DNA of 40,508 nt from an uncultured Haliea sp. Its GTDB lineage: Bacteria; Pseudomonadota; Gammaproteobacteria; Pseudomonadales; Halieaceae. Location: assembly GCA_913061145.1 (NCBI GenBank), contig CAJXUQ010000027.1, forward strand, positions 1-40,508, written 5' to 3'. Shown in pieces: positions 24,339 through 40,471 of this stretch. The position numbers were made by a program, and so were the translations under genes. Positions within the stretch are counted from its first letter, which is position 1; each line of letters opens with the position of its first letter. The notes under the pieces are model-generated. The model had not been told where the DNA came from. It worked only from the letters and a program-made list of their open reading frames with translations, and ran no database searches.

Positions 24339-25415
24339 TTACTCCAGACTGCGTTGGTTATGGCCCTCTACAGGCGTGGGCCAGGCATTGATCACTGCCT
24401 TGATCAAGGTTGCCAGGGGAATGGCAAAGAAGACGCCCCATACTCCCCAGATACCGCCAAAAAACAACACGGCGAGAATAATGGCCACCGGATGCAGATT
24501 CACGGCCTCGGAGAACAGCAGGGGCACCAGAACATTGCCGTCCAGACCCTGGATGACAAAATAGACCGCCATCAGCCAGTAAAATTCACTCGTGAACCCC
24601 CATTGAAAGAAACCCACCAGCAGTACCGGCAATGTCACAAGCGCCGCACCCAGATAGGGGATGATCACCGACAGGCCAACGCACAGGGCCAACAGGGCCG
24701 CGTAATTGAGCTGCAGGAAGGTAAAGCACACATAGCTGACTGACCCGACGATCAGGATCTCCAGCACCTTCCCTCGCGCATAGTTAGCGACCTGGGTGTC
24801 CATCTCCGACCAGATACGACGCAGCAACGGGCGCTCGCTGGGCAGAAAGGTGGCCAGCCAGCTCAAAATCTGCTGCCGATCCTTGAGAAAAAAGAACACG
24901 AGGATGGGAATCAGGATCATGTAGACCAGCAAGGTCAAAATACTGGGGATGGTCGCCAGTGAACGTGTCACCACCTGCTGACCGAGACCACCCAGCTCTG
25001 CCTGCGCCAGCGCCACCATCTGGTTGATCTGCTGCTGGCTGACGACGTCTGGATAGCGACCGGGCAGCAGGGTCAACAGCTGCCGACCCTGCTCCAGCAT
25101 ACGCGGCATTTCCGAGGCCAGCGCCACCAGCTGACGCCAGACCAGCGGCAGCAGACCGAGCGTCACACCGAAGAAAATACCAACGAACAGCGTGTAGGCC
25201 ACGCTTACGCCCACCCAGCCCGGCAAACCACGCTGCTCCAGACGTCCTGCAAGACCCTGCATCAGATAGGCGAGCACGATAGAAGCCACGACCGGCGCGA
25301 GAATGTCGCCAATCGTCATCAGCAGCGCCACCGCAACAACGAGCAGCACCAGCAAAAGCACCGACTCTTCTTCGAACAGGTAGCGCTTGTACCACTTATT
25401 GAAGATATCCAGCAT
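24339..25415 (-). CDS. AI-2E family transporter (PerM-like permease)
   Basis: A 358-residue inner membrane protein of the AI-2E exporter family. Seen: two N-terminal helices (about residues 17-55), a soluble segment at about 95-145, and a hydrophobic C-terminal half with YLGAALVTLPVLLVGF and the family signature GGIWGVWGVFFAIPLATLIKAV. The name comes from E. coli TqsA; other members export sodium, auxin-like or unknown solutes, so the substrate is open. Gene order TusA-like, permease, M16 protease is compact and leftward; E. coli likewise places perM next to bepA. Confidence 0.92.
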   Translation of the reverse strand: MLDIFNKWYKRYLFEEESVLLLVLLVVAVALLMTIGDILAPVVASIVLAYLMQGLAGRLEQRGLPGWVGVSVAYTLFVGIFFGVTLGLLPLVWRQLVALASEMPRMLEQGRQLLTLLPGRYPDVVSQQQINQMVALAQAELGGLGQQVVTRSLATIPSILTLLVYMILIPILVFFFLKDRQQILSWLATFLPSERPLLRRIWSEMDTQVANYARGKVLEILIVGSVSYVCFTFLQLNYAALLALCVGLSVIIPYLGAALVTLPVLLVGFFQWGFTSEFYWLMAVYFVIQGLDGNVLVPLLFSEAVNLHPVAIILAVLFFGGIWGVWGVFFAIPLATLIKAVINAWPTPVEGHNQRSLE

Positions 25416-25433
25416 GCTGCAGGTCCCTGTTGC

Positions 25434-25676
25434 CTAACGCTTTTTCAGCAGATAGGAGTAAATGCCATCGTGCTCGTCAGAGGCCAACAGCGCGTGGCCG
25501 GACTGCTCCGCGAATACCCGGAAATCGCGCAGTGAGCCGCGGTCAGTCGCCAGCACCCGCAAACACGCTCCGGGCTCCATCCCGTTGAGCGCCCGCTTTG
25601 CCAACAGCAGCGGCATGGGGCAATCAAGCCCCTGCGCATCGACCTCTACCACCGCGTCCTTTGCCTTCTGCATCAT
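25434..25676 (-). CDS. TusA-like sulfur carrier protein
   Basis: An 80-residue TusA/SirA-fold protein. The conserved cysteine C19 stands in LDCPMPLLLAKRAL, the C-P-x-P motif that carries persulfide in TusA, and GACLRVLATDRGSLRDF matches the second conserved block (usually DPG/DPS). The start is one of two adjacent ATGs (25676 or 25673), so length is uncertain by one residue. It lies 18 bases upstream of the permease. A similar small gene sits with perM/bepA homologues in other gammaproteobacteria. The acceptor protein is unknown. Confidence 0.88.
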   Translation of the reverse strand: MMQKAKDAVVEVDAQGLDCPMPLLLAKRALNGMEPGACLRVLATDRGSLRDFRVFAEQSGHALLASDEHDGIYSYLLKKR

Positions 25677-25867
25677 CCACCCGCCGGGTTTGTCCGCCGC
25701 GCAGTATATCCATTCATCCGATACACCCCAACAGCGCTGAACTTTTCTGTAAAACGATCATCACAGGGACTGTTACCGTGCTGGGCCGCCTGCGCGCCGT
25801 TCACGTACAATACAGGGATTGCCCTTGGCCCGCGCGGCTGTCATTACACGTGGTATGTAAAGAGCGT

Positions 25868-27334
25868 ATGCTGCTCCGACGTTTCAGACCGACCCTGCTG
25901 CACGCCGCCCTGCTGGCGACACTGCTGCCCCTGACTACGGCATCGACACAGGCCGTGGAGGGGCTAAAGCTGCCCAATCTGGGTGAGTCCAGTACCAGCC
26001 TGTTCTCCGCCGAATACGAGTACCAGCTGGGCCGCACCTGGCTGAAGATTTTCCGCAGCCAGGCGGCCACCATGGACGATCCGCTGCTGTTCGATTATCT
26101 GGAAGACCTGATCTACCGTCTGGTCATACACAGTCAGCTGGAGGATCGACGCATCGACCTGGTGCTGGTCGACAACCCGACTATCAACGCGTTTGCCGTC
26201 CCCGGGGGCGTGATCGGCGTGCACAACGGCCTGCTGATGTATGCCCAGACAGAAGACGAACTGGCCTCGGTGTTGGCGCATGAAATCGCGCACCTGAGTC
26301 AACGTCACTTCTCGCGCCGTGTGGAGTTCCAGCGCAATCAGCAGCCACTGAACCTGGCTGCCATGCTGGCGGGCTTCGTGTTGCTGGCCACGGCCGGCGG
26401 CGATGCGGGCATGGCCGCGCTGTCTGCGGCCCAGGCGGCAGCCCAGGATTCGGCATTGCGTTACAGCCGCAGCAACGAGGCGGAAGCCGACCGTGTCGGC
26501 ATGCAGACGCTGGTTGCGGCCGGCCTCGACCCGCATGCAACACCGGCCATGTTCGAGCGCATGCTGCAGGCCTCGCGCTACGCCAGCGGCAACCGCATCC
26601 CCGAGTTCCTGCGCACCCACCCCCTTTCGGAAAACCGCATTGCCGACACCCGCAACCGGGCGCGCCAGTACGCCAGCCCGGCGAACAGGGATGACCTGCA
26701 ATACCAGTTGATGCGCGCCCGGGTCGCCAACCACCTCGCCGCAACACCGGAAGCCGCGATACAGCAGTTTCGCGGTGAGCTGGATGGCAACACGCGCTCA
26801 CGCGAGGCATCCACCTACGGCCTGGTTCTGGCGCTGACGGAGGCGGGCCGGGTGGATCAGGCCGCACTGGAACTGGACAGCATCTGGTCCAGCAACCCGG
26901 AACGCCTTGAGTACAAGCTGGCCAATGCGGACATCCTCATGACGCGCGGCGAGCCGGGCAAGGCGGCAGAGCTGCTGGAGCATGAGCTGAAGCTGTCTCC
27001 CGGCAGCCACCCGCTGGCGATGGCGTATGCGCGGGCCCTGATGCAAGACCGCAAACCGCATATTTCGGAGGCTGTGCTGCTCGAGCAGAGCAAGGTGCGG
27101 CCCGAGGACCCCGCACTCTGGTATCTGCTGGCCGAGGTTCAGGGCCTGTCAGGAAATATTGTCGGCCTGCATCAATCTCGCGCCGAATATTTCATCCTTA
27201 CGGGCAACCTGGGTGAGGCTGAGAAACAGTTGAGCTATGCACTGAAGCTGGTGGGCTCAAACCACGTCGCGGCTGCGCGCATCAACGAGCGCCTGAGCGA
27301 TATCAACACATTGCGCGAACGAATGGATATCTGA
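25868..27334 (+). CDS. bepA: M48 metalloprotease BepA-like, outer membrane assembly quality control
   Basis: A 488-residue periplasmic zinc protease, one residue from the E. coli BepA length. Seen: signal peptide (MLLRRFRPTLLHAALLATLL...ASTQA), zinc motif H138-E-I-A-H142 in LAHEIAHLSQRHF, the downstream acidic ligand region E204-A-E-A-D208 in SNEAEADRVGM, HPLSENRIADTR, then C-terminal TPR repeats (about 290-488). BepA chaperones or degrades LptD and other stalled outer membrane proteins. The frame is open far upstream, but homology and the signal peptide begin at ATG 25868. It diverges from the TusA-like gene and ends one base before the convergent nadA stop. Confidence 0.93.
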   Translation: MLLRRFRPTLLHAALLATLLPLTTASTQAVEGLKLPNLGESSTSLFSAEYEYQLGRTWLKIFRSQAATMDDPLLFDYLEDLIYRLVIHSQLEDRRIDLVLVDNPTINAFAVPGGVIGVHNGLLMYAQTEDELASVLAHEIAHLSQRHFSRRVEFQRNQQPLNLAAMLAGFVLLATAGGDAGMAALSAAQAAAQDSALRYSRSNEAEADRVGMQTLVAAGLDPHATPAMFERMLQASRYASGNRIPEFLRTHPLSENRIADTRNRARQYASPANRDDLQYQLMRARVANHLAATPEAAIQQFRGELDGNTRSREASTYGLVLALTEAGRVDQAALELDSIWSSNPERLEYKLANADILMTRGEPGKAAELLEHELKLSPGSHPLAMAYARALMQDRKPHISEAVLLEQSKVRPEDPALWYLLAEVQGLSGNIVGLHQSRAEYFILTGNLGEAEKQLSYALKLVGSNHVAAARINERLSDINTLRERMDI

Positions 27335-27335
27335 A

Positions 27336-28409
27336 TCAGGCGCGACCCAGCACGCTCTTGTTGAGATTGGCGGCAAAATCGAGCATGCGGCGCAACGGCA
27401 CCATGGCTTGCTGCCCTACGACCGGGTCGACGAATACCTCGTTGCCGCCGCGTTCAAACACCTGATCCAGCGCTTCCAGTTCGTTCATTGCCATCCAGGG
27501 GCAATTGGCGCAGCTGCGACAGGTAGCGCCATTGCCCGCCGTCGGGGCGATAATGAATTCCTTGTCCGGTGCCTGCTGTTGCAGCTTGTAGAAGATGCCC
27601 TGGTCCGTGGCGACGATAAAACGGGGGTTCGGCATCTCCCTGGCGGCGCGGATGATCTGCGTGGTCGAACCGACCCGATCGGCCAGTTCGAGAACCGCCG
27701 CAGGCGACTCGGGGTGCACCAGCACCGCGGCGTCCGGATAGACCCGTTTCAGATCGGCTATCCCGCGGGCCTTGAATTCCTCATGCACAATACAGGCGCC
27801 GTCCCACATGAGGATGTCGGCACCGCTCTGGCGGCGCACATAGTCCCCAAGGTGTTTGTCCGGGGCCCAGATGATCTTCTTGCCCTGCGCCGCCAGGTGC
27901 TCGGCCACATCCAGGGCAATGCTCGAGGTTACTACCCAGTCCGCGCGCGCCTTTACCGCCGCCGAGGTATTGGCATACACCACCACCTCGCGGTCTGGAT
28001 GCGCATCACAGAAGGCTGAAAATTCCTCGATCGGACAACCGAGATCCAGGGAGCAGGTCGCCTCAAGCGTGGGCATCAGCACACGCTTTTCGGGGGTGAG
28101 GATTTTCGCGGTTTCCCCCATAAAACGTACCCCGGCCACAATCAGCGTGGTCGCCGGGTGATCGTGCCCAAAGCGCGCCATTTCCAGAGAATCCGACACG
28201 CAGCCACCGGTCGCCTCGGCCAGCGCCTGAATCGCCGGGGCGGTGTAGTAATGCGCAACAATCACCGCATTTTCCGCGCGCAGACGCTCGCCAATGCGCG
28301 CGCACAGCTCGCGCTCCTGCTCGGGGCTCAGCTCGTGCCGCTGAGCATTATCCAGATGAACCTGAACCTGCTTGCGGATGGATTCCAGCTTGTCGGAGGC
28401 AATGCTCAT
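27336..28409 (-). CDS. nadA: Quinolinate synthase
   Basis: A 357-residue enzyme that condenses iminoaspartate with dihydroxyacetone phosphate to quinolinate in NAD synthesis. The three [4Fe-4S] ligands line up with E. coli NadA: C119 ([11 protein letters not shown]), C206 ([10 protein letters not shown]) and C303 ([10 protein letters not shown]). [19 protein letters not shown] and [12 protein letters not shown] are also family blocks. I start at ATG 28409 ([10 protein letters not shown]); the frame runs 13 codons further up to 28448 without homology. Monocistronic by appearance, divergent from the GGDEF-EAL gene with an AT-rich 250-base spacer. Confidence 0.96.
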
Positions 28410-28659
28410 GATCGGCCCGTCGTGCGAAAAGGCGGGGGATTCTAGCACAATTTAAGCGGATGTCGCCGCGTGCAAGGTCGGCACTGCGGACCTCTTCGCC
28501 GGAAAAAAATGTGAATGCGTCGGTGTTTGCGAAAAATTACTAGAATTTCTCTCACATACTACGTATAACCTCATGTTAAATATAGAATAAGAAGCGATAT
28601 AACCACGCCGGTGGGGCGCGAGCCCGAAGGCGGCGATATAAGGATGATGCGGGGAGCCT

Positions 28660-30369
28660 GTGGATCTGCGAACGATTCTGGCGATTTCAGCCAACAAAAC
28701 AGACCATCTGATCCTGGCAGACTGCCTGGACCGCGCCGAGCCCCGCCGATTCCGGTTGAGCAGCAGCACCTCCCTTGAGCGCCCGCTGGATACGCTGACA
28801 GACCCTGCGATAGAGGCCGTCATCCTCGCCGCAGGGCCCGAAACCGACTACCTGCTGCGCCTGGCACAGAAACACGTACCGTCCCTGCCCATCATTCTTC
28901 TGCGCGACAGTGTCCCGGACAGCGAGCAGTTACGCCAGCTGCGCGACAGTGGCGCGCAGGACTACCTGGTGCGCGGGCAACTGCAAGATCCCATGCTGCA
29001 CCGGCTGCTCGACTACAGTATCGAGCTGAAACAGGCCCGCACCACCATCAGCGAGCTATCGAACCGCGACGCCCTCACCGGGACGCTCAACCGGGCGGGT
29101 TTTCGCGCTCACCTTGAACGCGCCATGCAGCGCTCGCAGCGCTATCGCTTCAAGACAGCGCTTCTCTACCTCAATGTCGATCAGTTCACCAACATCAATG
29201 ATCACTACGGTGAACAGAATGGCGACGCGGTTATCCAGGCGTTAAGCCAGCGCATGCTGAGCAAGCTGCGCAGCAGTGACAGCATCGCTCGCCTCGGCGG
29301 CGATGAGTTTGCCGTAATACTTGAGGACGTGGGCACACCCGCCGACATGGCCCGCATCGCCGACAAGATGCTGCAGGCCATCGCGGCACCCTACTACCTC
29401 GAGGGCCAGCACGTAGCGATAGACGCAAGCATTGGCGGTGCGCTCTACCCGGACGATGCTTCCAGTATGAGCGAGCTCATGGACCACGCACGCAGTGCCA
29501 TGCTGCAGGCCAAGGCGATCAGCGGCTGCCGTTTCGTGGCCTACAGCGATCACCTGCAATTTGATATGCAGGGCACCAGCACGCTCGCTGCCGAATTGCG
29601 CCTGGCGGCGCGGCACAACCAGTTCGAGCTGCATTATCAGCCGCGCATGAACCTTGAGCGCGGGCAGCTGGCGGGGCTGGAAGCCCTGCTGCGCTGGAAT
29701 CATCCGCAACGCGGCCTGATCTGTCCCGGTGAATTCATCGCCGAATGTGAAGACATGGGCCTGATGAAAACCATCGGTTATCAGGTCATACAGCACGCCT
29801 GCTGCGCCCTCAATTGGCTGGGTGACCAGCAGATGCATGACGTTGTGGTGGCGGTCAATATTTCGTTCTCGCAGATTCAGGACGATCGGTTCATCACTGC
29901 GGTGAAAGACATTCTGCAGCGCACGGGTGCAAATCCCGCTCGCCTGGAATTCGAACTGACAGAAACCACCATCCTGAAAGATCCCTCTGCCATCAAGGCA
30001 CGCATGCACGAACTGATGCAGATGGGCATCCGTTTTTCGCTGGACGACTTCGGCACCGGTTTCTCTCAACTCACCCACCTCACCGAGCTACCCATCTCCG
30101 CCATCAAGGTCGACGCAGCTTTCGTGAGGGACCTGCCTCATAACCCGCAGCAGGCGGCGGTGTGCAGCCTGATCATAGAAATGGCCCGACGCCTGGAAAT
30201 CGAAGTAATCGCAGAGGGCGTTGAGAATCACGAGCAGGTCAGCTTCCTGCGCGGCCAGAATTGCGAGCAGGTTCAGGGCTTCTACTACAGCAAAGCCATT
30301 CCACTGCAGCAGCTGCCGCGCTTCGTACAGGAGCAGCGCTTCAAGCAGCGGGAGCGCATATCATCCTGA
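28660..30369 (+). CDS. GGDEF-EAL cyclic di-GMP protein with receiver-like N-terminus
   Basis: A 569-residue cytoplasmic protein that should make and/or break cyclic di-GMP. Residues 1-115 look like a receiver fold (LPIILLRDSVPDSEQL, GAQDYLVRG) but the phosphoacceptor Asp position is not evident (AVILAAGPETDY), so it is probably a pseudo-receiver. GGDEF domain about 135-300 with intact G213-G-D-E-F217, although the usual D-x-D-x-F block reads LNVDQFTNIND. EAL domain about 315-560 with E341-A-L, NISFSQ, ELTET, DDFGTGF, IKVD and QGFYYS, all needed residues present. GTG start with GGGGAG just upstream. The 250-base upstream gap is AT-rich. Confidence 0.92.
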   Translation: MDLRTILAISANKTDHLILADCLDRAEPRRFRLSSSTSLERPLDTLTDPAIEAVILAAGPETDYLLRLAQKHVPSLPIILLRDSVPDSEQLRQLRDSGAQDYLVRGQLQDPMLHRLLDYSIELKQARTTISELSNRDALTGTLNRAGFRAHLERAMQRSQRYRFKTALLYLNVDQFTNINDHYGEQNGDAVIQALSQRMLSKLRSSDSIARLGGDEFAVILEDVGTPADMARIADKMLQAIAAPYYLEGQHVAIDASIGGALYPDDASSMSELMDHARSAMLQAKAISGCRFVAYSDHLQFDMQGTSTLAAELRLAARHNQFELHYQPRMNLERGQLAGLEALLRWNHPQRGLICPGEFIAECEDMGLMKTIGYQVIQHACCALNWLGDQQMHDVVVAVNISFSQIQDDRFITAVKDILQRTGANPARLEFELTETTILKDPSAIKARMHELMQMGIRFSLDDFGTGFSQLTHLTELPISAIKVDAAFVRDLPHNPQQAAVCSLIIEMARRLEIEVIAEGVENHEQVSFLRGQNCEQVQGFYYSKAIPLQQLPRFVQEQRFKQRERISS

Positions 30370-30447
30370 CATTTTGTAACAGGGCCCGCGATACGCAGCC
30401 TTGCATCGGCGCCTTGGACAAAGAAGCCTATGCGGTAGCGACACGGA

Positions 30448-32298
30448 GTGGTAGCCTTGACCGATCTTCAGGTTGCCGCGCATAACGTACTGATGCCACA
30501 GTCCAGTTCACACCCGCTACGCGCAAAAATCCTGGTCTGTGATGATGACCAGATTGTGCGTTTATTGACACGGCAGTGCCTGGAAGCCGAGGACATGATT
30601 GTCATCGAGGCCAGCAGTGGCCCAGAGGCGCTGGAGCTGTTTTCGTCTGAACGGCCAGACTTGGTATTCCTGGATGTCGAAATGCCGGGCATGTCGGGGC
30701 TTGAAGTCTGCAAGCTTATTCGCGAGATGCCCCAGGGGGAGTCCATCCCCATCATGATCGTCACGGGCTCCGACGATCGGGACTCCATCGACCTGGGCTT
30801 TGACGCCGGCGCCACCCAGTACAAAACCAAGCCGGTAAACTGGTCCCTGCTGGGCAGGGATGTACAGTACATGCTGCGTGCCAGCCAGGCCTTCAACGCC
30901 CTGCGTCGCCAGGAAGACCGGTTGCGTTATCTGGCCTACTACGACCCGCTGACGAACCTGCCAAACCGCCGCAATTTCAATGAACAGCTGGTGCGCATTC
31001 TGAAGCGCAGCCAACGTCGCAAGTCCTACGCTGCACTGCTCTTTATCGACCTGGACAACTTCAAACGGATCAACGACTCCATCGGCCACGGCCGGGGTGA
31101 CAGGCTGCTGGTAGAGATCGCCAAGCGCCTTACACTGGAGCTACGACAGGATGACGCCATCAACTTCTTCAGTGATGACGATGAAGACGACGATGCGAGC
31201 GGCGATGGCAGCGCGGAAATCGCCAGATTGGGGGGTGACGAGTTCACCGTCGTACTCTCCGACGTACCCGATACCCAGCATGTGGAGAGCATTGCGCGGC
31301 GCATTCTCGAAAGCCTGTCGCAGCCCATCGCACTGCAATCGCACAACCCGGTTGTTACGCCCAGTATCGGCATCGCCATTTACCCGACTGATGGGGAGGA
31401 CCCCGACAGCCTGATCCGCAATGCCGATACCGCCATGTACGTGGCGAAGGCCGAGGGACGAGCCTGCTTCCGCTTCTACAACGAAGAGATGAACGCCAAG
31501 GCCGTAGAGCAGCTCAAGATGGAAGAAGAGCTGCGTCACGGGATGCAGGCGGGTGAACTCGAGCTGCGCTACCAGCCCCAGGTCGAAGTCGCCACGGGCA
31601 ACGTCGTCAGCCTCGAGGCGCTGGTGCGCTGGAAGCACCCATTGCGCGGCATGGTATCGCCAGCGGAGTTCATCCCTGTTGCGGAGCGCACAGGGCAGAT
31701 CATAGAGCTGGGGGAATGGGTCATGACCCAGGTCGCAAAAGACTGCCAGTACTGGGATAGCCTGGGACTGCCGGCCTTCCGCGTGAGCGTCAATATTTCC
31801 CCCCTGCAGTTTAACCAGAGCGGCCTGTCCCGGTTTGTACGCGGCTTTCTGGAGAAGTCGAAGATGCTGCCGCACAGGCTGGAGCTGGAGCTCACCGAAG
31901 GCGCCATCATGACAGATGCGGAGGCCAACATTGTCAAACTCAAGGAGTTGAAGGCCATTGGTCTGGACCTCGCGGTCGACGACTTTGGCACTGGCTACTC
32001 CTCGCTGAGCTACCTCAAGCGCTTTCCGATCGACACGCTGAAGATCGACCAGAGCTTTATCGCAGACCTCGGCAGCCCCGATGGCGCCGCCATCATTGAT
32101 GCCATCCTGGCCTTGTCGCGCACCCTCAACCTGCGTGTGATCGCCGAGGGCATAGAAACGGCAGAACAGATGCGTTATCTCGTCGACAAGAAGTGCGACC
32201 TGCTGCAGGGCTACTATTTCTCCGTGCCGGTTTATCCGGAGGAAGTGCCCAACCTGCTGCGCCACAATTTTTCCGAGCAACTCGCCTCGGGACAGTAG
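30448..32298 (+). CDS. Response regulator REC-GGDEF-EAL
   Basis: A 616-residue two-component output protein for cyclic di-GMP. REC domain about 26-145 with the acidic pair CDDD, phosphoacceptor D76 (VFLDVEMPG), T (IVTGS) and K (YKTKPVNW). GGDEF about 160-335 with G262-G-D-E-F266; the EAL domain has E390-A-L, NISPLQF, ELTEG, DDFGTGY, LKIDQSFI and QGYYFS, so both catalytic sites look complete. Odd: an acidic insertion (about 242-254, DDDEDDDASGDG) just before the GGDEF loop. Start uncertain: GTG 30448, TTG 30457 with GGAG at eight bases, or ATG 30493. It follows the first GGDEF-EAL gene by 78 bases and precedes the subtilisin by 13. Confidence 0.93.
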   Translation: MVALTDLQVAAHNVLMPQSSSHPLRAKILVCDDDQIVRLLTRQCLEAEDMIVIEASSGPEALELFSSERPDLVFLDVEMPGMSGLEVCKLIREMPQGESIPIMIVTGSDDRDSIDLGFDAGATQYKTKPVNWSLLGRDVQYMLRASQAFNALRRQEDRLRYLAYYDPLTNLPNRRNFNEQLVRILKRSQRRKSYAALLFIDLDNFKRINDSIGHGRGDRLLVEIAKRLTLELRQDDAINFFSDDDEDDDASGDGSAEIARLGGDEFTVVLSDVPDTQHVESIARRILESLSQPIALQSHNPVVTPSIGIAIYPTDGEDPDSLIRNADTAMYVAKAEGRACFRFYNEEMNAKAVEQLKMEEELRHGMQAGELELRYQPQVEVATGNVVSLEALVRWKHPLRGMVSPAEFIPVAERTGQIIELGEWVMTQVAKDCQYWDSLGLPAFRVSVNISPLQFNQSGLSRFVRGFLEKSKMLPHRLELELTEGAIMTDAEANIVKLKELKAIGLDLAVDDFGTGYSSLSYLKRFPIDTLKIDQSFIADLGSPDGAAIIDAILALSRTLNLRVIAEGIETAEQMRYLVDKKCDLLQGYYFSVPVYPEEVPNLLRHNFSEQLASGQ

Positions 32299-32311
32299 AT
32301 TGACAGCACAG

Positions 32312-34324
32312 ATGCGCGTGTGCCTGAGGAAACTGCCACTGAGCCTGGCCGCGTTGCTGTGGCTCGCACTACCGGCCCACGCCGAAAACCCTGACGATGC
32401 GTCCCTGATGATTATGCTGCAGGGCGCTGACGTGACGGAACTGCGGCAATTGGTGGAAGGCGTCGGCGGCACGATAACCCACGACCTCCCCATCATCCAG
32501 GCGCTGGGAGCCGCAGTGACCACTGCCCAGCTGGAACAGATTCGCAACTCACCGCTGATTCTGCGACTGATTGACGACCTGTCGATGGACATGTCCGAGC
32601 CGCTTCCTCCACCAGACACAGGCCAGTGCAATCTGGGTGGCGCACTCGAGGCGCGCATCAGCGACAGCAGGCTGGAATGGGACATACATAACCTCGGCGG
32701 GGTGGCAGAGCGACTCACGCACGTGGAACTCTCCTGGCCCGAAACGCTCGGCCCGGAAGTGCAGATACTGTTGGGAGCGACGTCGCTCAAACTCCCGCCA
32801 CCGGCTCAGGAGAGCGACGGCGCCTGGTACACGCGCGACGAGATTGCAGGGGGTGTTCCGGCACCCCTGCCAGGTGACATCGCAACATTTGCCATTGCAT
32901 TCCCGCAGCAAGCCGACTCAGGGTCTGCAGGCTGGCAACAACACCATTTCAGTGTGGCACTGCAGTTCGGTGGGGCGTGCAAGCTCAAAATGATCCCGGG
33001 GTACACCGATTACTTTTCGGACACGTATTTCCCGAGCGTCTCAGGCGCAGCCGAACTACACCGCCACGGCATCACCGGCCGCGGCGTTACCGTTGCCGTA
33101 CTCGACTCGGGACTCTGGGAGCACCCGGCACTGGCCAAAGATACCCGCGGCGAGAACCGCATTGCAGGCCGCTACGACGCAATCCGTGATGTCGCCGACC
33201 ACCCCGTGCCTGATGCCAGCGGGCACGGCACACACATGAGCAGCGTTATCGCTCACAGTGAGCGAGTGCTCACAAATGGTCAACCCGACGGCAGCTATAA
33301 AGGTATTGCTCCGGATGCTCGGCTGGTCGCCATCAAAGCCTTCGATGAAGAAGGGCAAGGCGATTTTCTGGACATCGTCCGCGGCATTCAGTGGGCTGTC
33401 GACAATCGGGGGCGCCTTGATATCAAGGTGCTCAATCTTTCGTTCGCTGCCCGACCCCGCTGGCCTTATTTCCTCGACCCCATCAACCAGGCGCTGATGC
33501 GCGCCTGGGCCGCAGGGATCACCATTGTCGCGGCGGCCGGGAACGAAGGTCCCGCACCCATGACCATCGGCTCCCCCGGTAATCTCCCCTACATCATCAC
33601 CGTTGGCGCCTACACAGACTCCTGGACGGTTGACGACCGTAATGACGATTACATCCCTGGATTCTCGTCGCGAGGCCCCACGCCCAGCGGCCATATCAAA
33701 CCGGATATCGTCGCGCCGGGAGGCCATATAGCAGGCCTGGCAGAGCCGGGCAGCGCGCTGACACGGAAACACCCGAACTACATGATCAGCACCGGTGAGT
33801 TGGTCATGACCGGCACATCACAGGCCAGCGCACTGGTTTCCGGTATTGCCGCGTTATTGCTGCAACTGGAGCCTGGCCTGAGCCCTGATGACATCAAATG
33901 CAAACTGATGAGCAGCGCCGAACCTGCCATACACAAAAACGGCCGCCTCTATTACAGCCCTTTCCAGCAAGGCAGCGGCGCTGTCAGCGCAACTCGCGCC
34001 GTGACTCTGGGGATTTCAGGTTGCGGAAACGCAGGGCTGGATCTAGCCCGCGACATCAATGGAGAAATGCACTTTGAGGGGCCCGCTGTGGTTGACGATG
34101 CCGGGCAACCTACGCTGCCCGGCATCGAACGCATGCTGGCCCCCGATGCCACTGAGGATTCCCCATCCAGCGCTTTGCGATGGGGCGTGAAAGCACACAT
34201 CGAACGAGAAGACGCTGTCCCACCAGAGGAAAACTTGCCGATAAACTGGCTGGAAATCTACTTTTCCGAGAAAGCCAAGATCGAGGAACTCTCGCGCAAC
34301 GCGGACCTTGACACCGGTCACTAA
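32312..34324 (+). CDS. Secreted subtilisin-like serine protease (S8)
   Basis: A 670-residue exported S8 peptidase. Signal peptide MRVCLRK + LPLSLAALLWLALPAHA; then an I9-like propeptide (about 28-95, LMIMLQGADVTELRQLV, LGAAVTTAQLEQI); then a beta-rich domain (about 100-230) with two cysteines (GQCNLGG, GGACKLK) likely disulfide-bonded; then the catalytic domain with D265 (AVLDSGLW), H305 (SGHGTHM), oxyanion-region N in AAAGNEG and S503 (TGTSQAS, usually GTSMA). No C-terminal sorting domain is seen. The ATG is chosen over TTG 32300 in the same frame; both keep the signal peptide. It probably shares the transcript of the REC-GGDEF-EAL gene. It could process neighbouring exported proteins; that is inference. 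Confidence 0.92.
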   Translation: MRVCLRKLPLSLAALLWLALPAHAENPDDASLMIMLQGADVTELRQLVEGVGGTITHDLPIIQALGAAVTTAQLEQIRNSPLILRLIDDLSMDMSEPLPPPDTGQCNLGGALEARISDSRLEWDIHNLGGVAERLTHVELSWPETLGPEVQILLGATSLKLPPPAQESDGAWYTRDEIAGGVPAPLPGDIATFAIAFPQQADSGSAGWQQHHFSVALQFGGACKLKMIPGYTDYFSDTYFPSVSGAAELHRHGITGRGVTVAVLDSGLWEHPALAKDTRGENRIAGRYDAIRDVADHPVPDASGHGTHMSSVIAHSERVLTNGQPDGSYKGIAPDARLVAIKAFDEEGQGDFLDIVRGIQWAVDNRGRLDIKVLNLSFAARPRWPYFLDPINQALMRAWAAGITIVAAAGNEGPAPMTIGSPGNLPYIITVGAYTDSWTVDDRNDDYIPGFSSRGPTPSGHIKPDIVAPGGHIAGLAEPGSALTRKHPNYMISTGELVMTGTSQASALVSGIAALLLQLEPGLSPDDIKCKLMSSAEPAIHKNGRLYYSPFQQGSGAVSATRAVTLGISGCGNAGLDLARDINGEMHFEGPAVVDDAGQPTLPGIERMLAPDATEDSPSSALRWGVKAHIEREDAVPPEENLPINWLEIYFSEKAKIEELSRNADLDTGH

Positions 34325-34382
34325 CCCTCGACATCGACCAACTACCCCATATGGGGCAAACCCGGAACAGCACCTTGCCGTA

Positions 34383-34406
34383 ATTATTTTTCTGATTATT
34401 TTTCAA
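34383..34406. repeat. 12-base tandem direct repeat, AT-rich
   Basis: ATTATTTTTCTG is followed directly by ATTATTTTTCAA: ten identical bases repeated at exact 12-base spacing. It lies about 235 bases before the repeat-protein start and may be a curved or nucleoid-protein-binding element, or a regulator half-site pair. Confidence 0.5.
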
Positions 34407-34503
34407 CAATTTAGAGCCAATTACCTCAAGCCAACTATGAAACAGCGGACGTCTTCCGCCCTCCTTTAAGAAAACGCTGCCCCAAACAGGGTATGGAAAC
34501 GTC

Positions 34504-34532
34504 TTCAACCCCCTCTGCCCCAACTCTATAAC
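34504..34532 (+). promoter_or_regulatory. Weak promoter candidate of the repeat-protein gene
   Basis: TTCAAC (34504-34509), 17 bases, TATAAC (34527-34532). The -10 is good and the -35 poor. It overlaps the second ACGTCTTC/CTGCCCCAA element, which would suit a regulated promoter. Confidence 0.3.
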
Positions 34533-34642
34533 GTTCACAAGCATTACAAACCCGTGATGCAAAGTGCCTCTCAAGGATGAGATCAGGTTAAAGAAATTGG
34601 GTCACAAATGTGGCCGTATCACGCGATGAGGCAGAGGATTTT

Positions 34643-35182
34643 ATGAGAAACCTACCAAGCATGCTGAAGAGAACCGCAGTAGCGACACTGCTCGTTGCGG
34701 CGACGCCCGTGCTGGCAGAGTCTGCACCTGAGAACCTTATGACCAGTTACTCTTCCGTACACAAAGTTTCACACGGGATTGCGAGCAACGTAAATTACGC
34801 ATCGACGAGTGGGTACAAGTGGGCTCAACGATCAGACTCCCAACAGCCAACTTCAGAATCTTGGGCAGAAACGAGCGGCCACAACGCAAATTACAAGTGG
34901 GCCTCCAGTAATTCTCACGTACAGCCCTCGTCAGCTACCGAGCGAACCGCTTCGTCAGGCTTGGATTTTAAGTGGGGGGAATCGAGCGTCGCCAGTGAAA
35001 CGGGCTATAAGTGGGGCTTCCGCAGCTACGCTGACCAAGCCGGCTACAAGTGGGGTTTCCGCAGCTACGCTGACCAGGCCGGCTACAAGTGGGGTTTCCG
35101 CAGCTACGCCGACCAAACCGGTTACAAGTGGGGTTTCCGCAGCCATGCTGAGCAAGCTGGTTACAAGTGGGGTTTCCGATAG
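34643..35182 (+). CDS. Secreted repeat protein with C-terminal GYKWGFR 13-mers
   Basis: A 179-residue exported protein of no family I recognise. Seen: signal peptide (MRNLPSMLKR, then TAVATLLVAATPVLA, cleavage likely after A25), a Ser/Thr/Asn/Gln-rich middle, and four full 13-residue repeats plus a final seven-residue core ending exactly at the stop. Aromatic [YF]KW motifs begin at residues 58, 84, 109, 122, 135, 148, 161 and 174, so the last six are spaced 13 and the first two about 26, implying decayed older units. No cysteine. ATG 34643 is chosen over GTG 34610 because GAGG lies five bases before it and the signal peptide starts there. It is followed by a strong terminator and appears monocistronic. 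It could be a peptide precursor, an amyloid/matrix protein or a surface-binding protein; sequence does not decide. Confidence 0.85.
   Translation: MRNLPSMLKRTAVATLLVAATPVLAESAPENLMTSYSSVHKVSHGIASNVNYASTSGYKWAQRSDSQQPTSESWAETSGHNANYKWASSNSHVQPSSATERTASSGLDFKWGESSVASETGYKWGFRSYADQAGYKWGFRSYADQAGYKWGFRSYADQTGYKWGFRSHAEQAGYKWGFR
35003..35179 (+). repeat. 39-base in-frame tandem repeats (4.5 copies)
   Basis: Units at 35003, 35042, 35081 and 35120, with a partial fifth at 35159-35179. Each encodes GYKWGFR plus a six-residue spacer. Within the core all base differences are synonymous (GGC/GGT, TAT/TAC, CGC/CGA); all three amino acid changes (A to T, Y to H, D to E) fall in the spacer SYADQA. Confidence 0.95.
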
Positions 35183-35204
35183 CCTCAGAGCGCGTTAACA
35201 TCAG

Positions 35205-35229
35205 AGGGAGGCTAAGCCTCCCTTTTTTT
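35205..35229 (+). terminator. Intrinsic terminator after the repeat protein
   Basis: A-GGGAGGC (35205-35212), loop TAA, GCCTCCC-T (35216-35223), with seven T from 35223. An eight-pair, GC-rich stem 22 bases after the stop codon; it isolates the repeat-protein transcript from the kinase gene. Confidence 0.9.
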
Positions 35230-35316: not shown

Positions 35317-38300
35317 ATGATCCGCTGGCCACAACTACTTGTCGGACTTCTATCACTCGCCTTCACCGCCAAATCATTGGGGGTAAGCCCTGCATCCACC
35401 CCCAACATAGATTTTCAGCCATCAATTATCTCTTCATTGCTTACTCAGCAGATCGTTACTCAGTCGTTTCAGGATACGAGTGGCAACATGTGGTTTCTTA
35501 CTCAGGAGGGGCTAAATCGTTATAACGGCCACGAAGTAGAAAACTACCGATATTCACTTACAAACCCGAATTCTATTTCCCATGACGCTGTAACAAATAT
35601 CGTAGAGGACGAAGACGGTACAATTTGGGTCTCCACCCGTGGTGGAGGACTCAACCGATATAGCCAAATTGATAATGGGTTTGATCACTTTACCGCTGAC
35701 GGCTTAGAAGAAAGCTCTCCTTTATCAAATGACATACTTACACTCTACATCGACAAAGCCGGCCGTATCTGGGTCGGCTACGACAACGGATTCAGCATCT
35801 TCACCCCCTCTGAGGAGACGTTCGCTCATTACACACACAGTATGATTGGCCTACCTTACCTTGGCGAGGTGAACAGCTTTACTCAAACATCAGACGGTAC
35901 TGTATGGGCTGCATCTACATCTGCTGGGCTAATCAAAATTACAACGGACGGCGAACTTAAAGCCCAAGGTATTGTACCGAAAGAAAAAGGGGTAAACACT
36001 TCCACCGGCCGCGAACCGATCTACAAGGTATTCGCCGACACAGCCGGACAAATCTGGTCACTTACCCCATCCTCAGGCGTAATAAAGTATAACCCTATAG
36101 ATAACACAGCGGAGCGATTCACCCACTCTAGCGAAGACCAGCGTTCAATCCTGTCTAATACGGCCGTTAGTGTGTATGAAGACCGATCAGGGAAAATTTG
36201 GATATGCACACTTGATGGTTTGAACCTGTACTCACCAGCAGAGAACGAATTTTATCGATTCAACACAAGCAATACAAACCTACCATCGGATCGAGTCACA
36301 AGCATTTTCCAGTCACAAGAGGGCCTGTATTGGGTCGGAACAATCTTTGGCTTAGCCACAGGATCGCAAAATCTTTTTTCCAAGTTCAATGCTGAAACAT
36401 CGGGTTTGCCCAACGAATCAATCAACGCATTCGGGCAAACACAGGATGGCACCATCTGGATTGGAACTGATGATGGACTGATCCGGCTAGACGATAAACA
36501 CTCCTCAACAAGAACTATCAATGAGCATACGATACCTGCAATCTCCAACTCTACCGTAATGAGCCTCCTGGGAGAGGGAGATACACTCTGGGTGGGAACA
36601 TTCTCGGGCGGTCTAAATAAGTTTGACACCAAAGAAAATACTGTTAGGACTTTCCAACACTCGCGGCTTGACGACAAAACGATAGGCGCGAATGGGATCA
36701 CTTCAATTATGAGGTCACGCAGCGGAAAACTATATATAGGAACCTACGGGGGTGGACTCAGTATAATGAATTCAGATGAGTCCGGATTCAGGCGGTTTAC
36801 CTATGATCCAACCGACATCAGTAGCCTTAGTAATAATAATGTTCTAGCACTGTTTGAAGACTCACTAGGTTCTGTCTGGGTTGGCACAGAAAATGGCCTA
36901 AACAAAATTAGGTCTTTAGAGGAAGGGAAGTTTGATCGTCACTACACTAAACGCGGGAATACCGATAGCATTTCCAGCGATATGGTGTGGTCGTTCTATG
37001 AAGATGACAAACAAGATCTGTGGCTAGGAACTAAAGGCGGCGGACTCAACAGGTGGGGGAAGACTCCTCGCAGCATCGGCCGTGAGGAATTCGACCACTT
37101 TTCGGAAAATATTGCCTTACCCAGCTCAAATATTTACGGAATTCAAAGCGACTCCCTTGGAAATATTTGGTTGTCACATAACCGCGGGGTAACCAAATTC
37201 TCCCCAGAAAACAAGGAAGTTAGACAATTTGGAGTCAGAGATGGACTTCAAGATACTGAATTCAATATGGGGGCTTCATTTAAGTCTAGCTCGGGAATGA
37301 TATACTTTGGCGGAAACCTCGGTTTCAACGTGATAGACCCGGAGGGGTTTGTTGACCGGGAGTCGCCCCCAAAAGTTAGCATCTCTGAAATCAGAGTGAT
37401 GAATGAGCGCAGGACATTCGACCGGCCCTACAATAGTCTCGACAAGATTGAACTCACTCACAATGATAAAATATTTTCTGTAGAGTTCTTTGCTGCGGAT
37501 TACTCAGACCCTAATTTGGTCCAGTATGCTTACAAACTCGACGGTATAAACGAGAACTGGGTCATCTCCAGTGATGCACGGCAAGCCTCGTTCACTACCC
37601 TGCCCCCCGGGTCCTACAAACTGCACCTTGCCGCAGCGAGCCCAGGCGGCAGTTGGAATTGGGATGGCAAGGCCATAGATGTTAATGTGTCTCCCCCTCC
37701 ATGGCGAAGCGGCGTAGCATATCTGATATATGTGCTGGCTACAGTATCGGTAATCGCGTCCTACTTGATAAAGCAGCGCGAAAAATCCGAAATGGCGATA
37801 GCTAGGCAACGAGAACTGGAGGAGAAGGTCAGGGAACGAACACAAGATCTCCAGGAAGCAACAGTCGCTGCACAGGCCGCGAATAGGGCGAAATCAGAGT
37901 TCCTTGCCACGGTCAGTCATGAGATCAGGACGCCAATGCATGGAATGATCGGCATGACGGAACTACTCCTTCACACTAGACTAGACGAACAACAACGAAG
38001 ATTTGCAACCGCCGCAAACAATAGTGGAGCCGCACTTCTATCATTGATTAACGATATCCTCGATTTTTCAAAGATCGAAGCCAAGAAAATCGAACTAGAG
38101 AACACTCCATTCAACGTCGTCGATCTCGTTGAAGACGTTTGCTACCTTCAAAGCGAACCCGCATCTAGAAAAGGGATTGAACTGGCCCACATAATTGATG
38201 CGGCTATAGACTTCGAAGTAATTGGCGACCCTGGGAAAGTGCGCCAGATCCTTATGAACCTAACCAACAATGCGATTAAGTTCACTGAATCTGGACACAT

Positions 38301-39816
38301 CGAGGTTGTCGTCAATTTTCACCAACCTAGTGAAGAAGGCAAATCAGTACTGCATTTAGAGGTAAACGATACTGGTATAGGCATGGACAGCAGTACTGCC
38401 ACACGTGTCTTTGAGCCATTCACGCAAGCAGATGCGAGCACTACAAGGCAGTATGGAGGAACTGGCCTTGGACTGACGATAACTAAGAGCTATGTTGAAC
38501 TAATGGGAGGGAAAATCTATGTTAAGTCCCAAATCAAAACCGGAACTTCGGTACGGATCGACCTCCCTTTAGCCCCTGTAATCAAGCAAAATCATCTACC
38601 CAGTAGAGCGCCTATCACATCAAACCACACATTCCACATCGTGTCTGAGAGCAAGTCTACAAGAGCGATGCTGCATCAACAGTTGAAGCGCCTCGGTGTA
38701 ACTAACATACGTGAGCTAACGGAGGTACGTGACCTATGCGAATTTGATGACAAAGACTTTTTTTTCATTGACTCGCAAGCTTTAGAGAACAACCGCGGGC
38801 GAGACGACTGGCCAAAAATTCGCGATCGGTCGGCTATCATCACGACTCTTGGCGAAATTTCAAAGCACCAAAAATTGAAAGCAAGCACCATTATCAGCAA
38901 GCCGACAATGATGGAGAGTATTACCAATACCTTGTCGGGGTGGATCCCCAGTGTCCGCGACGAAATATTTATAGAGAACACGCCTAGGCCAGAAACTCAG
39001 AAGCGCAACCTTAGGATCTTGGTTGCTGAAGACATTCCAACCAATCAGCGTATCGCTAGTGAAGTTATAAAGATGTGCGGCTACGACGTTGACATTGCAG
39101 AGAACGGCAAGCAGGCAGTTCATATGCAAAGTCTCAACCAATACGACCTCATCTTTATGGACTGCCAGATGCCAGTGATGGACGGTTTCGAGGCCACGAT
39201 GAACATACGTACAGAGGAGCAGTCAACAGGCAGCCAACCCTGTAAAATTATTGCACTGACAGCAGGGACATCCTCGAGTGATAAGAAAGCCTTCTTCGAG
39301 GCCGGTATGGACGACTTCCTTGGCAAGCCATTCAAGGTGGATGACATAAGAAGAGTCTTAATAGAGCACTTTGGCCTTAACGCATACCCAGAGCATCAGG
39401 AACTTGGCCTCAAGGGCGCCGAAACAACTTCCGCTCCAGATGACGCTGATGATGCTGATGACATAGATGAGGCAGCGATTTCCGCTATCCTCCAGATTGA
39501 AGCACAAACAGGAAAAAAAATATTAAAGGAAGTCTATCAAGGGTTCTGCGCTCAGATGGACCAGAAGATATCGGAGTTCTATTCCGCATATTTGGCTGAC
39601 GATAGAAAGCAGCTACAGTCGGTCTCGCATGCAATAAAATCGATGAGCGCGAACTTAGGTGCAACGAAAATCAAGTCCCTTTCAGGAAGTGTTGAGATTG
39701 CATTAAAGTCGGGAGGAGATGTCGATTTCGAGATAGCGCATCGATCGATTGACCGCGCATATACCAAGTTCACCCTGGAGTTCACATCTCGATATAGGGA
39801 CGCGCTAAATAGCTAG
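35317..39816 (+). CDS. Hybrid histidine kinase with two beta-propellers (Reg_prop/Y_Y_Y)
   Basis: A 1499-residue one-pass membrane sensor kinase. Signal peptide ([22 protein letters not shown]), then 14 propeller repeats of the W[VIL]GT-x-GGLN type (about 40-690; two seven-bladed propellers), a Y_Y_Y domain (about 705-795), one membrane helix (about 800-820), a short coiled coil, HisKA with H868 ([11 protein letters not shown]), HATPase (N box [10 protein letters not shown] boxes DTGIGMD and GGTGLGL), a receiver-like domain with D1152 (FFFIDSQ) but without the acidic pair, a full receiver with D1282 ([11 protein letters not shown]) and an HPt domain with H1438 ([13 protein letters not shown]). 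It lacks the AraC output of Bacteroides HTCS proteins, so it must signal to a separate regulator. Codon and base use are more AT-rich than the left part of the window. Confidence 0.94.
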
Positions 39817-39850
39817 AATCCTGTTGCGTCAAGAGCAATGGAGATCACCC

Positions 39851-40471
39851 ATGCAGAAAAATCAAATAACACTGCATTTTCACATTTTTATTTTTTTGGG
39901 ATTTATCTTATCAATCTCCCCACTAGCGGAAGAACGTCGATCTGCTCGATTGCCTCCTGAGTACACGCTGCAAACCCCATCATTGCTAAATCATCTATCT
40001 TCGACCACAGTATTATCGACGCTTTACGCTTCAGACGGATATTTATGGTTAGCTACTCTTGACGGCATAAGAAGAGTGGAACAACAAGGTGATCAGACAT
40101 TTCATCACTATAGAAACTTCATCGGAGAAAGCGAGAGACTTAGGGCTCGAAAGATTTTGGAAATCTGGGACGGGGAACTACTAGCACTAACGCTAGAAAA
40201 CAGATTGACATCACTTACTCGGGATTCATCAGAGTTTCAGTCGGCATATCGACTAAAGAATATTGGTGTAAGTATTGAAGAGGTTGTGGACGCATATTTC
40301 TCTGCATCCAATCATCTTTGGCTTGGCTATGCCAATGGCCATATAACCCTCATCGAATCCAATAACCAATACCAACAAATATTTAGCGAACTCGACGCTG
40401 GGGCTCCAACAGACATATTTGGATATGGCGACGGGCATGCACTAGTTTCATACCGTGAATTCAATTTGTAA
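39851..40471 (+). CDS. Short exported propeller protein, probably a broken sensor gene
   Basis: A 206-residue protein starting MQKNQITLHFHIFIFLGFILSISPLAEE, a signal peptide, followed by a few propeller-type blades (SDGYLWLATLDGIRRV, SNHLWLGYANGHITLI). ATG 39851 has GGAG at seven bases; the frame is open back to a TTG at 39824. It begins 34 bases after the hybrid kinase. Complete proteins of this kind have many more blades and a membrane helix, so the TAA at 40469-40471 looks premature. In the -1 frame the bases after it read VSATLDELVRGQA up to the window end, compatible with a one-base loss near 40445-40467. The rest is outside the window. Confidence 0.65.
   Translation: MQKNQITLHFHIFIFLGFILSISPLAEERRSARLPPEYTLQTPSLLNHLSSTTVLSTLYASDGYLWLATLDGIRRVEQQGDQTFHHYRNFIGESERLRARKILEIWDGELLALTLENRLTSLTRDSSEFQSAYRLKNIGVSIEEVVDAYFSASNHLWLGYANGHITLIESNNQYQQIFSELDAGAPTDIFGYGDGHALVSYREFNL

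Follow-up and report, generated by a model that had tools for sequence, protein, structure and literature searches.

The locus described here raises the question of what role is played by a predicted secreted protein that is built from tandem copies of a seven-residue core, GYKWGFR, and which is encoded on a 40,508-nucleotide stretch of DNA from an uncultured Haliea sp. (referred to below as the window, meaning the whole stretch that was analysed). A preliminary description of this DNA had proposed a multicopy peptide precursor, with a matrix protein, an amyloid-like fibre subunit or a substrate for cross-linking as alternatives. The open reading frame on which that proposal was based was confirmed, as it runs on the forward strand from an ATG codon at position 34643 to a TAG stop codon at 35180–35182 and specifies a product of 179 amino acids, and its signal peptide was again recognised by eye. 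The gene and its immediate surroundings comprise the following features:

34643..35182 (+), candidate tandem-repeat peptide precursor, from the open reading frame and its array, with homologues in 63/140 Halieaceae genomes

34643..34717 (+), signal peptide MRNLPSMLKRTAVATLLVAATPVLA, read from the sequence with the cut site placed by eye

34718..35002 (+), leader with degenerate core copies, from the alignment of precursors

35003..35179 (+), array of five GYKWGFR cores and four six-residue spacers, from Tandem Repeats Finder and codon counts

35203..35225 (+), terminator-like hairpin (10-pair stem) with a T run, 3' of the precursor gene

Tandem Repeats Finder detected a single array in the whole window (35003–35178, period 39, 4.5 copies, score 275). 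The five cores are perfect and are separated, in order, by the spacers SYADQA, SYADQA, SYADQT and SHAEQA, with the stop codon directly following the last core; the earlier description of perfect 13-residue repeats thus holds for the cores but not for the 13-mers, which are not all identical. The region previously termed a variable middle was found to also contain three degenerate cores (GYKWAQR, NYKWASS and DFKWGES), which are located in the leader. Three terminator-like sites occur in the region versus 1.3 in shuffled sequences, and the hairpin at 35203..35225 is weak when taken alone. The repeat protein produced no match above cut-off in Pfam (best FlaF_Ig-like, E 0.37), NCBIfam or PHROGs, nor against PDB sequences at E values up to 10, in agreement with the earlier statement that no named family carries this motif, and placing the protein in no structural family of these collections. 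The Pfam matches of the precursor of a close relative, G003, to 3HCDH (2.1e-5, over the cut-off) and HTH_AraC (2e-4, below it) were taken to be repeat artefacts because no single stretch passes alone. AlphaFold2, using 22 homologues, predicted no secondary structure (mean pLDDT 45.8, array block means 35–42), a poor model that represents weak evidence.

The neighbouring genes in the window are as follows:

28660..30369 (+), GGDEF-EAL protein, possible c-di-GMP output (Pfam EAL 3.4e-69, GGDEF 9.6e-40)

30448..32298 (+), response regulator that carries GGDEF and EAL domains, candidate output of the phosphorelay (Pfam Response_reg 2.7e-26, GGDEF, EAL)

32300..34324, start not fixed (+), secreted S8 subtilase, candidate processing protease (Pfam Peptidase_S8 4.8e-50)

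35317..39816 (+), Reg_prop/Y_Y_Y propeller hybrid histidine kinase with receiver and Hpt, candidate receptor (Pfam)

39824..40471 (+), second propeller receptor, 5' part (weak Reg_prop match, 0.0019)

The GGDEF, EAL and DDFGTG motifs of the first of these products are intact, while the response regulator possesses the receiver Asp, GGDEF and EAL motifs, the S8 subtilase the DSG, HGTH and GTSxA motifs, and the kinase those of the phospho-acceptor His, the receiver Asp and the Hpt His. The GGDEF-EAL gene adjoins the response regulator gene in the window, and is located farther off or is separated from it by intervening genes in some relatives. The kinase contains Reg_prop, Y_Y_Y, HisKA, HATPase and receiver domains according to Pfam, placing it in the family of Reg_prop hybrid two-component sensors, and its sensor is related in sequence to PDB 4a2l (2.2e-83), 4a2m, 3v9f, 3va6 and 3ott, which we take to be glycan sensors. 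The second receptor gene is split in the assembly: its reading frame runs to 40471, 37 bases short of the contig end, and the remainder of the gene (an 860 aa frame, L081) lies at the end of contig C26 of the same genome, with no overlap between the two parts; a short inverted similarity between the two contig ends, seen by eye, suggests an inserted element. In relatives this receptor is mostly 980–1090 aa in length, and in G003 and G005 it displays Reg_prop, Y_Y_Y and a weak ATPase domain, HisKA not being among the Pfam matches. None of the six window proteins scanned with Pfam (28660 to the window end) was recognisable as an exporter, and RiPP-type cytoplasmic maturation was dropped from consideration, given the signal peptide and the lack of any maturation enzyme among the same six proteins.

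The usual gene order in Halieaceae is RR-GGDEF-EAL (the response regulator), S8 subtilase, repeat protein, propeller hybrid kinase and second propeller receptor. Gene order was counted from the 77 genomes with an S8 entry, 55 of which extend 3 kb or more beyond the S8 gene, and the order response regulator, S8, repeat gene, kinase was observed in 40 of these 55 loci. In six loci, all from genus g6, the repeat gene and the S8 gene occur together and the kinase is not adjacent; five g6 genomes (G163, G012, G051, G172 and G161; L132–L136) carry the kinase on another contig, at 46–51% sensor identity to that of the window, and G168, also of g6, has no kinase match among the matches listed. Among the remaining nine loci, all parts are present in G160, for which the response regulator and S8 genes had been taken from two loci that overlap; the parser missed a short repeat protein with two copies in G031; G013, G015, G052 and G105 bear repeats on the S8 protein itself; and in G108 and G123 the place of the repeat gene is taken by a secreted protein that has no array. 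In G008 (L111) the RR-GGDEF-EAL and S8 genes are retained, and the repeat gene and kinase, both absent although 12 kb is available past the S8 gene, appear to have been lost jointly. The short secreted protein of genus g13 (L119, L120 and L121, from G108, G119 and G123, respectively) displays one FQWGS motif and no array, the G119 locus being cut by a contig end. G015 additionally encodes, between two propeller receptor genes (L123:7792-8193, minus strand), a small secreted protein with two ASDxVAGSIWKT units and a stretch that by eye resembles the N-terminal part of S8; this protein has no Pfam match and is perhaps another precursor architecture.

Matches to the repeat protein were found in 42 of the 97 genomes of a first sample (E up to 0.01), all within Halieaceae, and in none of the 36 genomes from other families of the order in that sample at the same threshold. 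A family-wide search (E up to 0.001) identified homologues in 63 of 140 Halieaceae genomes, representing 20 of 28 genera. A weak match (E 0.003) at G028:C3:95502-95606 lies inside a 681-aa frame that also contains S8. The core of Haliea salexigens DSM 19537 (L034) equals that of the window. Among species the core differs (GYKWGFR, GYRWGIR, AYRWALR, AFKWGLK, GYKWRIN, GSKWGRR and others), as does the number of W-containing units in line, i.e. six in the window, eight in G003, 14 in G004, seven in G005 and 20 in G007; the repeat-number comparison between strains that had been suggested earlier therefore reveals variation, rather than the constancy that would have spoken against a multicopy precursor. 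In the table of these counts G042 was mis-parsed as having one unit (I stands at the core position held by K or R elsewhere), and G101 and G172 were undercounted owing to a unit without W and an ambiguous residue. Some assemblies break inside the array (the ends of L058 and L130 in G006; L044 and L131 in G024), and the gene can thus be missed, or its copies undercounted, in draft genomes. The repeat protein is separate, and not fused to another, in the 57 parsed Halieaceae proteins, with a period of 13 residues in 54 and of 12 in three (G037, G164 and G170). The observation that the protein ends exactly on its last core is true of the window and extends to its relatives, since 46 of 50 parsed 3'-complete precursors have their stop codon three residues past the last W; in three it falls two residues past it (WRR), and the precursor of G160 extends for nine residues. 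The G039 precursor, outside the 50 counted, also extends beyond the last core.

According to the preliminary description, cleavage after Arg would release equal 13-mers. This is compatible with most species, in which R is the last core residue, but not with G056 (N), G040 and G100 (K), G051 (S) or G162 (G). Furthermore, in the window, as in G005 and G007, the first core copy lacks a standard spacer and is instead preceded by VASET or VATET. Simple trypsin-like release of 13-mers was rejected as a family-wide rule because the terminal core residue varies. A dibasic cleavage site between cores was not constant either, as most consensus units have one terminal basic residue, some end in RR and others in N, S or G. 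Given the first copy without a standard spacer and the variable last residue, the mature unit may be the 7–8-residue core rather than the 13-mer.

The selective constraint on individual positions of the repeat was assessed by a codon comparison of 50 Halieaceae arrays (391 units) with at least four regularly spaced W residues, the first unit of each array being excluded. Relative to the consensus codon, the core displayed 488 synonymous and ten nonsynonymous differences (ratio 0.006), as opposed to 335 and 267, respectively, in the spacer (ratio 0.215), with the exception of the spacer Q, which is constrained like the core (61 synonymous, four nonsynonymous). The window array alone displays five synonymous and no nonsynonymous differences in its cores, and four and seven in its spacers, so the earlier reading of a core that changes by synonymous substitution and a spacer that varies applies to the window and, with few exceptions in the core, to the 50 arrays of the family. 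Copies within one protein are kept equal and the common sequence differs between lineages, a combination that is predicted for a peptide read by one receptor and for which a building block would have no need.

Comparison of close relatives revealed that the repeat gene is exchanged together with receptor sequences. The window aligns with G003 by blastn in one block (25231–34651, 9421 bp, 96.07% identity) that stops nine bases into the repeat gene, and with G001 in one block (24894–34651, 91.58%) that has the same edge:

34643..34651 (+), left edge of allele swap, defined by where blastn identity to G003 and G001 ends

The G001 contig (L047) itself ends inside the repeat gene, and the kinase of this genome is on another contig, with a sensor that is 88% like that of G003. 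Between the window and G003 the response regulator is 100% identical and the S8 protein 92%, as opposed to 39.9% for the kinase, and the G003 core is GYRWGIR rather than GYKWGFR. The propeller of the second receptor is only 20–29% identical between these two (windows at residues 200–550), whereas from about residue 700 (Y_Y_Y at 709–767, the membrane segment and the cytoplasmic part) identity is 96–99%, DNA identity being back at 92% inside this gene, near residue 680 by coordinates. At greater distance than for window–G003, the same contrast between response regulator and kinase sensor, with differing cores, is displayed by G004–G006 (93% and 40%), G022–G044 (91% and 36%) and G017–G039 (82% and 39%), and the regulator/sensor contrast recurs in G056–G044. 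By comparison, members of genus g1 of the same type have 62–88% kinase-sensor identity. In four within-genus contrasts from three genera (g1 twice, g16 and g11) precursor and kinase differ together. Core type divides each of the genera g1, g11 and g16 in the kinase-sensor tree, where the GYRWGIR members of these three and of g27 form a cluster (support 0.995) apart from their congeners; G024, from a fifth GYRWGIR genus, is placed just outside this cluster (support 0.112). The second propeller evolves rapidly in general, with 29% identity between the same-type pair G005–G006. Precursor and receptor sensor were thus found to switch together between close relatives, while a Mantel test of the core alone was negative (see below). 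Core sequence and receptor appear to change together at short range, so that the family would have specificity types resembling pherotypes.

Co-inheritance was further evaluated across the family by partial correlation. The pre-array region (signal peptide and leader) correlates with the kinase sensor (partial r 0.554, 0/2000 permutations as high) and not with the response regulator (0.037, 677/2000) among 45 genomes. The propeller of the second receptor correlates with the sensor (0.346, 0/2000) and the regulator (0.225, 1/2000) among 36 genomes, and the C-terminal part of this receptor with the regulator (0.455, 0/2000) and not with the sensor (0.059, 383/2000). For S8, the catalytic domain yielded 0.414 with the regulator (4/2000) and 0.319 with the sensor (0/2000), and the N-terminal region 0.452 with the sensor (0/2000). 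The contrasts are consequently not all-or-none, since S8 partly tracks the sensor and the second propeller also tracks the regulator. By parsimony over 43 genomes, the sensor tree required the fewest core changes (22), followed by the kinase-domain (25), regulator (26) and S8 catalytic (27) trees, the corresponding values for changes at the K/R position being 5, 6, 11 and 12; in 25 column resamplings the sensor-tree ranges did not overlap those of the regulator and S8 trees. Conversely, the seven-residue core displayed no family-wide correlation with the kinase sensor in a regulator-controlled partial Mantel test (r 0.001, 932/2000 as high), and its distance correlated with that of the S8 catalytic domain (0.28, 3/2000). 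At deep divergence the core fails to follow the distance between sensors, which counts against the reading preferred below. The 12-period arrays (G037, G164 and G170) were left out of the core tests; the cores of G001, G039 and G042 were entered by hand from the proteins, and the final 43 genomes include G001, while G039 and G042 fall outside them owing to missing rows for other genes.

A connection between the protease and W-containing repeats extends beyond the separate repeat protein. Within Halieaceae, the S8 protein of G013 (g7), encoded between two propeller proteins, has the unit GNYWNA repeated dozens of times close to its C-terminus, and those of genus g9 (G015, G052 and G105) carry SYFFND or FVWNDS repeats at a similar place. 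Outside the family, a class sample of 369 genomes (E up to 1e-60) yielded three S8 homologues and a phylum sample of 398 genomes (E up to 1e-70) yielded five, all from one other family. All eight possess W-containing tandem repeats near the C-terminus (two to nine copies in line, with units such as GYLWNN, AYLWFD, GDPWGGGY, AFMWDE, GLIWKN, AVIWRL and GVVWNN), as opposed to none of the 36 S8 paralogues of the same eight genomes, one of which is cut by a contig end; this control started from 46 S8 matches, two of which were second pieces of proteins already counted. A Reg_prop/Y_Y_Y receptor adjoins the repeat-bearing S8 gene in seven of the eight genomes, and in the eighth, G342, the contig ends right after the S8 gene and Reg_prop matches are present on another contig. 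Two of these neighbouring receptors are hybrid kinases (G991 and G922) and five have GGDEF or GGDEF-EAL domains, i.e. GGDEF-EAL in G350 and GGDEF in G392, G971, G987 and G969, the match being weak in all of these but G392 and, in G987, falling just under the cut-off.

Based on the above, we propose, with a probability of roughly 0.68, that the repeats constitute a peptide ligand, probably released by S8, of an allele-specific c-di-GMP signalling system that resembles peptide pheromone systems. The observations behind this proposal are gene linkage, natural fusions, co-switching and within-protein constraint, and the reading as a multicopy peptide precursor is favoured because receptors switch together with the precursor, the core is constrained within arrays and a protease is linked. 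That part of the preliminary description consequently stands, as opposed to its detail of 13-mers released by cleavage after Arg, which does not generalise, while its matrix, amyloid and cross-linking alternatives gained no support. The precursor and propeller receptors are likely to represent a cognate ligand-receptor set; the assignment of S8 as the processing enzyme is somewhat favoured, and a role of the peptide as an intercellular pheromone is a tentative suggestion with slightly less than even odds. In the proposed mechanism the signal peptide would export the precursor, and the co-encoded secreted S8 protease would cut it into equal GYKWGFR-based peptides, as suggested by linkage and natural fusions. 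The hybrid kinase, and probably the second receptor, would then bind the peptide through its extracytoplasmic propeller, since the precursor and both propellers co-switch. From domains and gene order, a phosphorelay from HisKA to receiver to Hpt to the adjacent RR-GGDEF-EAL protein would alter c-di-GMP, both the direction of this response and any action between cells being putative. General porins have size limits that the peptides may exceed, and a periplasmic self-sensing loop is thus possible.

Several observations count against this proposal. The kinase does not adjoin the precursor in six g6 genomes, some species have a non-basic last core residue that a single cleavage rule would not accommodate, the six window proteins scanned with Pfam include no recognisable exporter, and the solved relatives of the sensor are glycan sensors. 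Additionally, the swapped region is contiguous, and part of the co-inheritance could represent hitch-hiking on one recombination tract. If this were the whole explanation, the swap would be a neutral replacement of a variable island, driven for instance by selection from phages on a surface protein, and the kinase would have moved with it through linkage. Contiguity of the exchanged genes and the rapid evolution of the second propeller (29% identity in the same-type pair mentioned above) would suit such an island, which is nevertheless improbable given that all four within-genus contrasts change precursor and kinase together, that the G003 exchange ends inside the second receptor just past its propeller, that types recur across genera with matching sensors, and that five g6 genomes retain the kinase on another contig.

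The repeats might alternatively remain unreleased, with the intact chain or the S8 tail acting as a multivalent tether or co-receptor that docks on propellers and brings the protease or clusters to the sensor. Repeats are indeed part of the protease in the eight outside homologues and in genera g7 and g9, and identical copies, with cores and spacer Q held constant, would allow multivalent binding, while an unstructured chain, as modelled by AlphaFold2, fits a tether and a released peptide alike. We consider a tether unlikely, as the repeat protein is a separate entity in the 57 parsed Halieaceae proteins and as a tether would not need the stop codon to fall three residues past the last W, as it does in 46 of 50. 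A secreted structural or matrix protein (an amyloid-like fibre or surface binder), the amount of which is set by the linked c-di-GMP circuit, would account for the signal peptide, the aromatic and cationic repeats, the variable copy number and the nearby c-di-GMP genes, but is very improbable: it leaves unexplained why the propellers switch with repeat type, unlike the C-terminal part of the second receptor, the protein has no match in Pfam, NCBIfam, PHROGs or PDB sequences, and the AlphaFold2 model, poor and thus weak evidence, has no secondary structure (mean pLDDT 45.8). The resemblance to curli and other functional amyloids is limited to predicted secretion and to tandem repeats with conserved Q and G, which are also conserved in the curli repeat motif; unlike these, the Halieaceae protein has no family match in Pfam or NCBIfam, a period of 12–13 residues and no predicted strands.

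The peptide-ligand proposal has counterparts in known systems. In ComQXPA of Bacillus, and likewise in agr of Staphylococcus, the precursor and the sensor half of the receptor vary together. The ComQXPA peptide precursor, processing partner and membrane kinase are encoded together, with a striking polymorphism that defines communication groups (PMC4408185). Similarly, the Halieaceae locus encodes a small-peptide precursor, a candidate processing partner and a membrane kinase together, and is polymorphic in type, but it differs from ComQXPA and agr in its Gram-negative host, its S8 subtilase and propeller receptors, the tandem copies in its precursor and the presence of c-di-GMP domains. ComQXPA and agr have single-copy precursors, Gram-positive hosts, and modification enzymes and kinases unrelated to the Halieaceae parts. 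No Pfam domains of a ComQ/AgrB modification enzyme or of a ComP/AgrC homologue were found in the six scanned window proteins.

The multicopy arrangement is reminiscent of fungi, whose Kex2 protease belongs to the subtilisin family. A survey of Kex2-processed repeat proteins describes a signal peptide followed by core peptides that are cut out by the protease (PMC7329392). Like these proteins and yeast alpha-factor, the window protein has a signal peptide (by eye) and tandem cores; unlike in them, no constant dibasic site occurs between Halieaceae cores. The fungal repeat precursors depend on the eukaryotic secretory pathway, dibasic sites and GPCR pheromone receptors. As regards the Reg_prop/Y_Y_Y hybrid two-component systems (PDB 4a2l, 4a2m and 3v9f), the window kinase is a sequence relative with shared domains. 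Those of Bacteroides sense glycans and end in AraC-type output, whereas the window kinase is genetically coupled to a repeat protein and ends in receiver and Hpt. By analogy, the Halieaceae system would work like pherotype systems and fungal multicopy precursors, and no scanned part belongs to those families. In the open PMC literature no occurrence of GYKWGFR was found, and no description of a repeat-precursor/S8/propeller system was recognised, as judged on titles and abstract openings.

Peptide signalling with dedicated kinases is textbook knowledge in Gram-positive bacteria and rare in Gram-negative ones. We see an even chance that the locus belongs to a widespread, undescribed Gram-negative class in which S8 proteases carry or adjoin W-containing core peptides that act as ligands of propeller receptors with c-di-GMP output, the Halieaceae having a multicopy precursor and specificity types that are swapped as precursor-receptor blocks. 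The receptors and protease present at the locus, which the preliminary description did not bring up, make the interpretation as a peptide precursor testable. If it is true, propeller receptors would gain a peptide ligand, and an unexplained repeat protein would become a testable ligand. Across a marine family, one cassette unites the candidate multicopy precursor with a protease, two receptors and c-di-GMP domains, and its natural allele swaps would predict which strains can signal to which.
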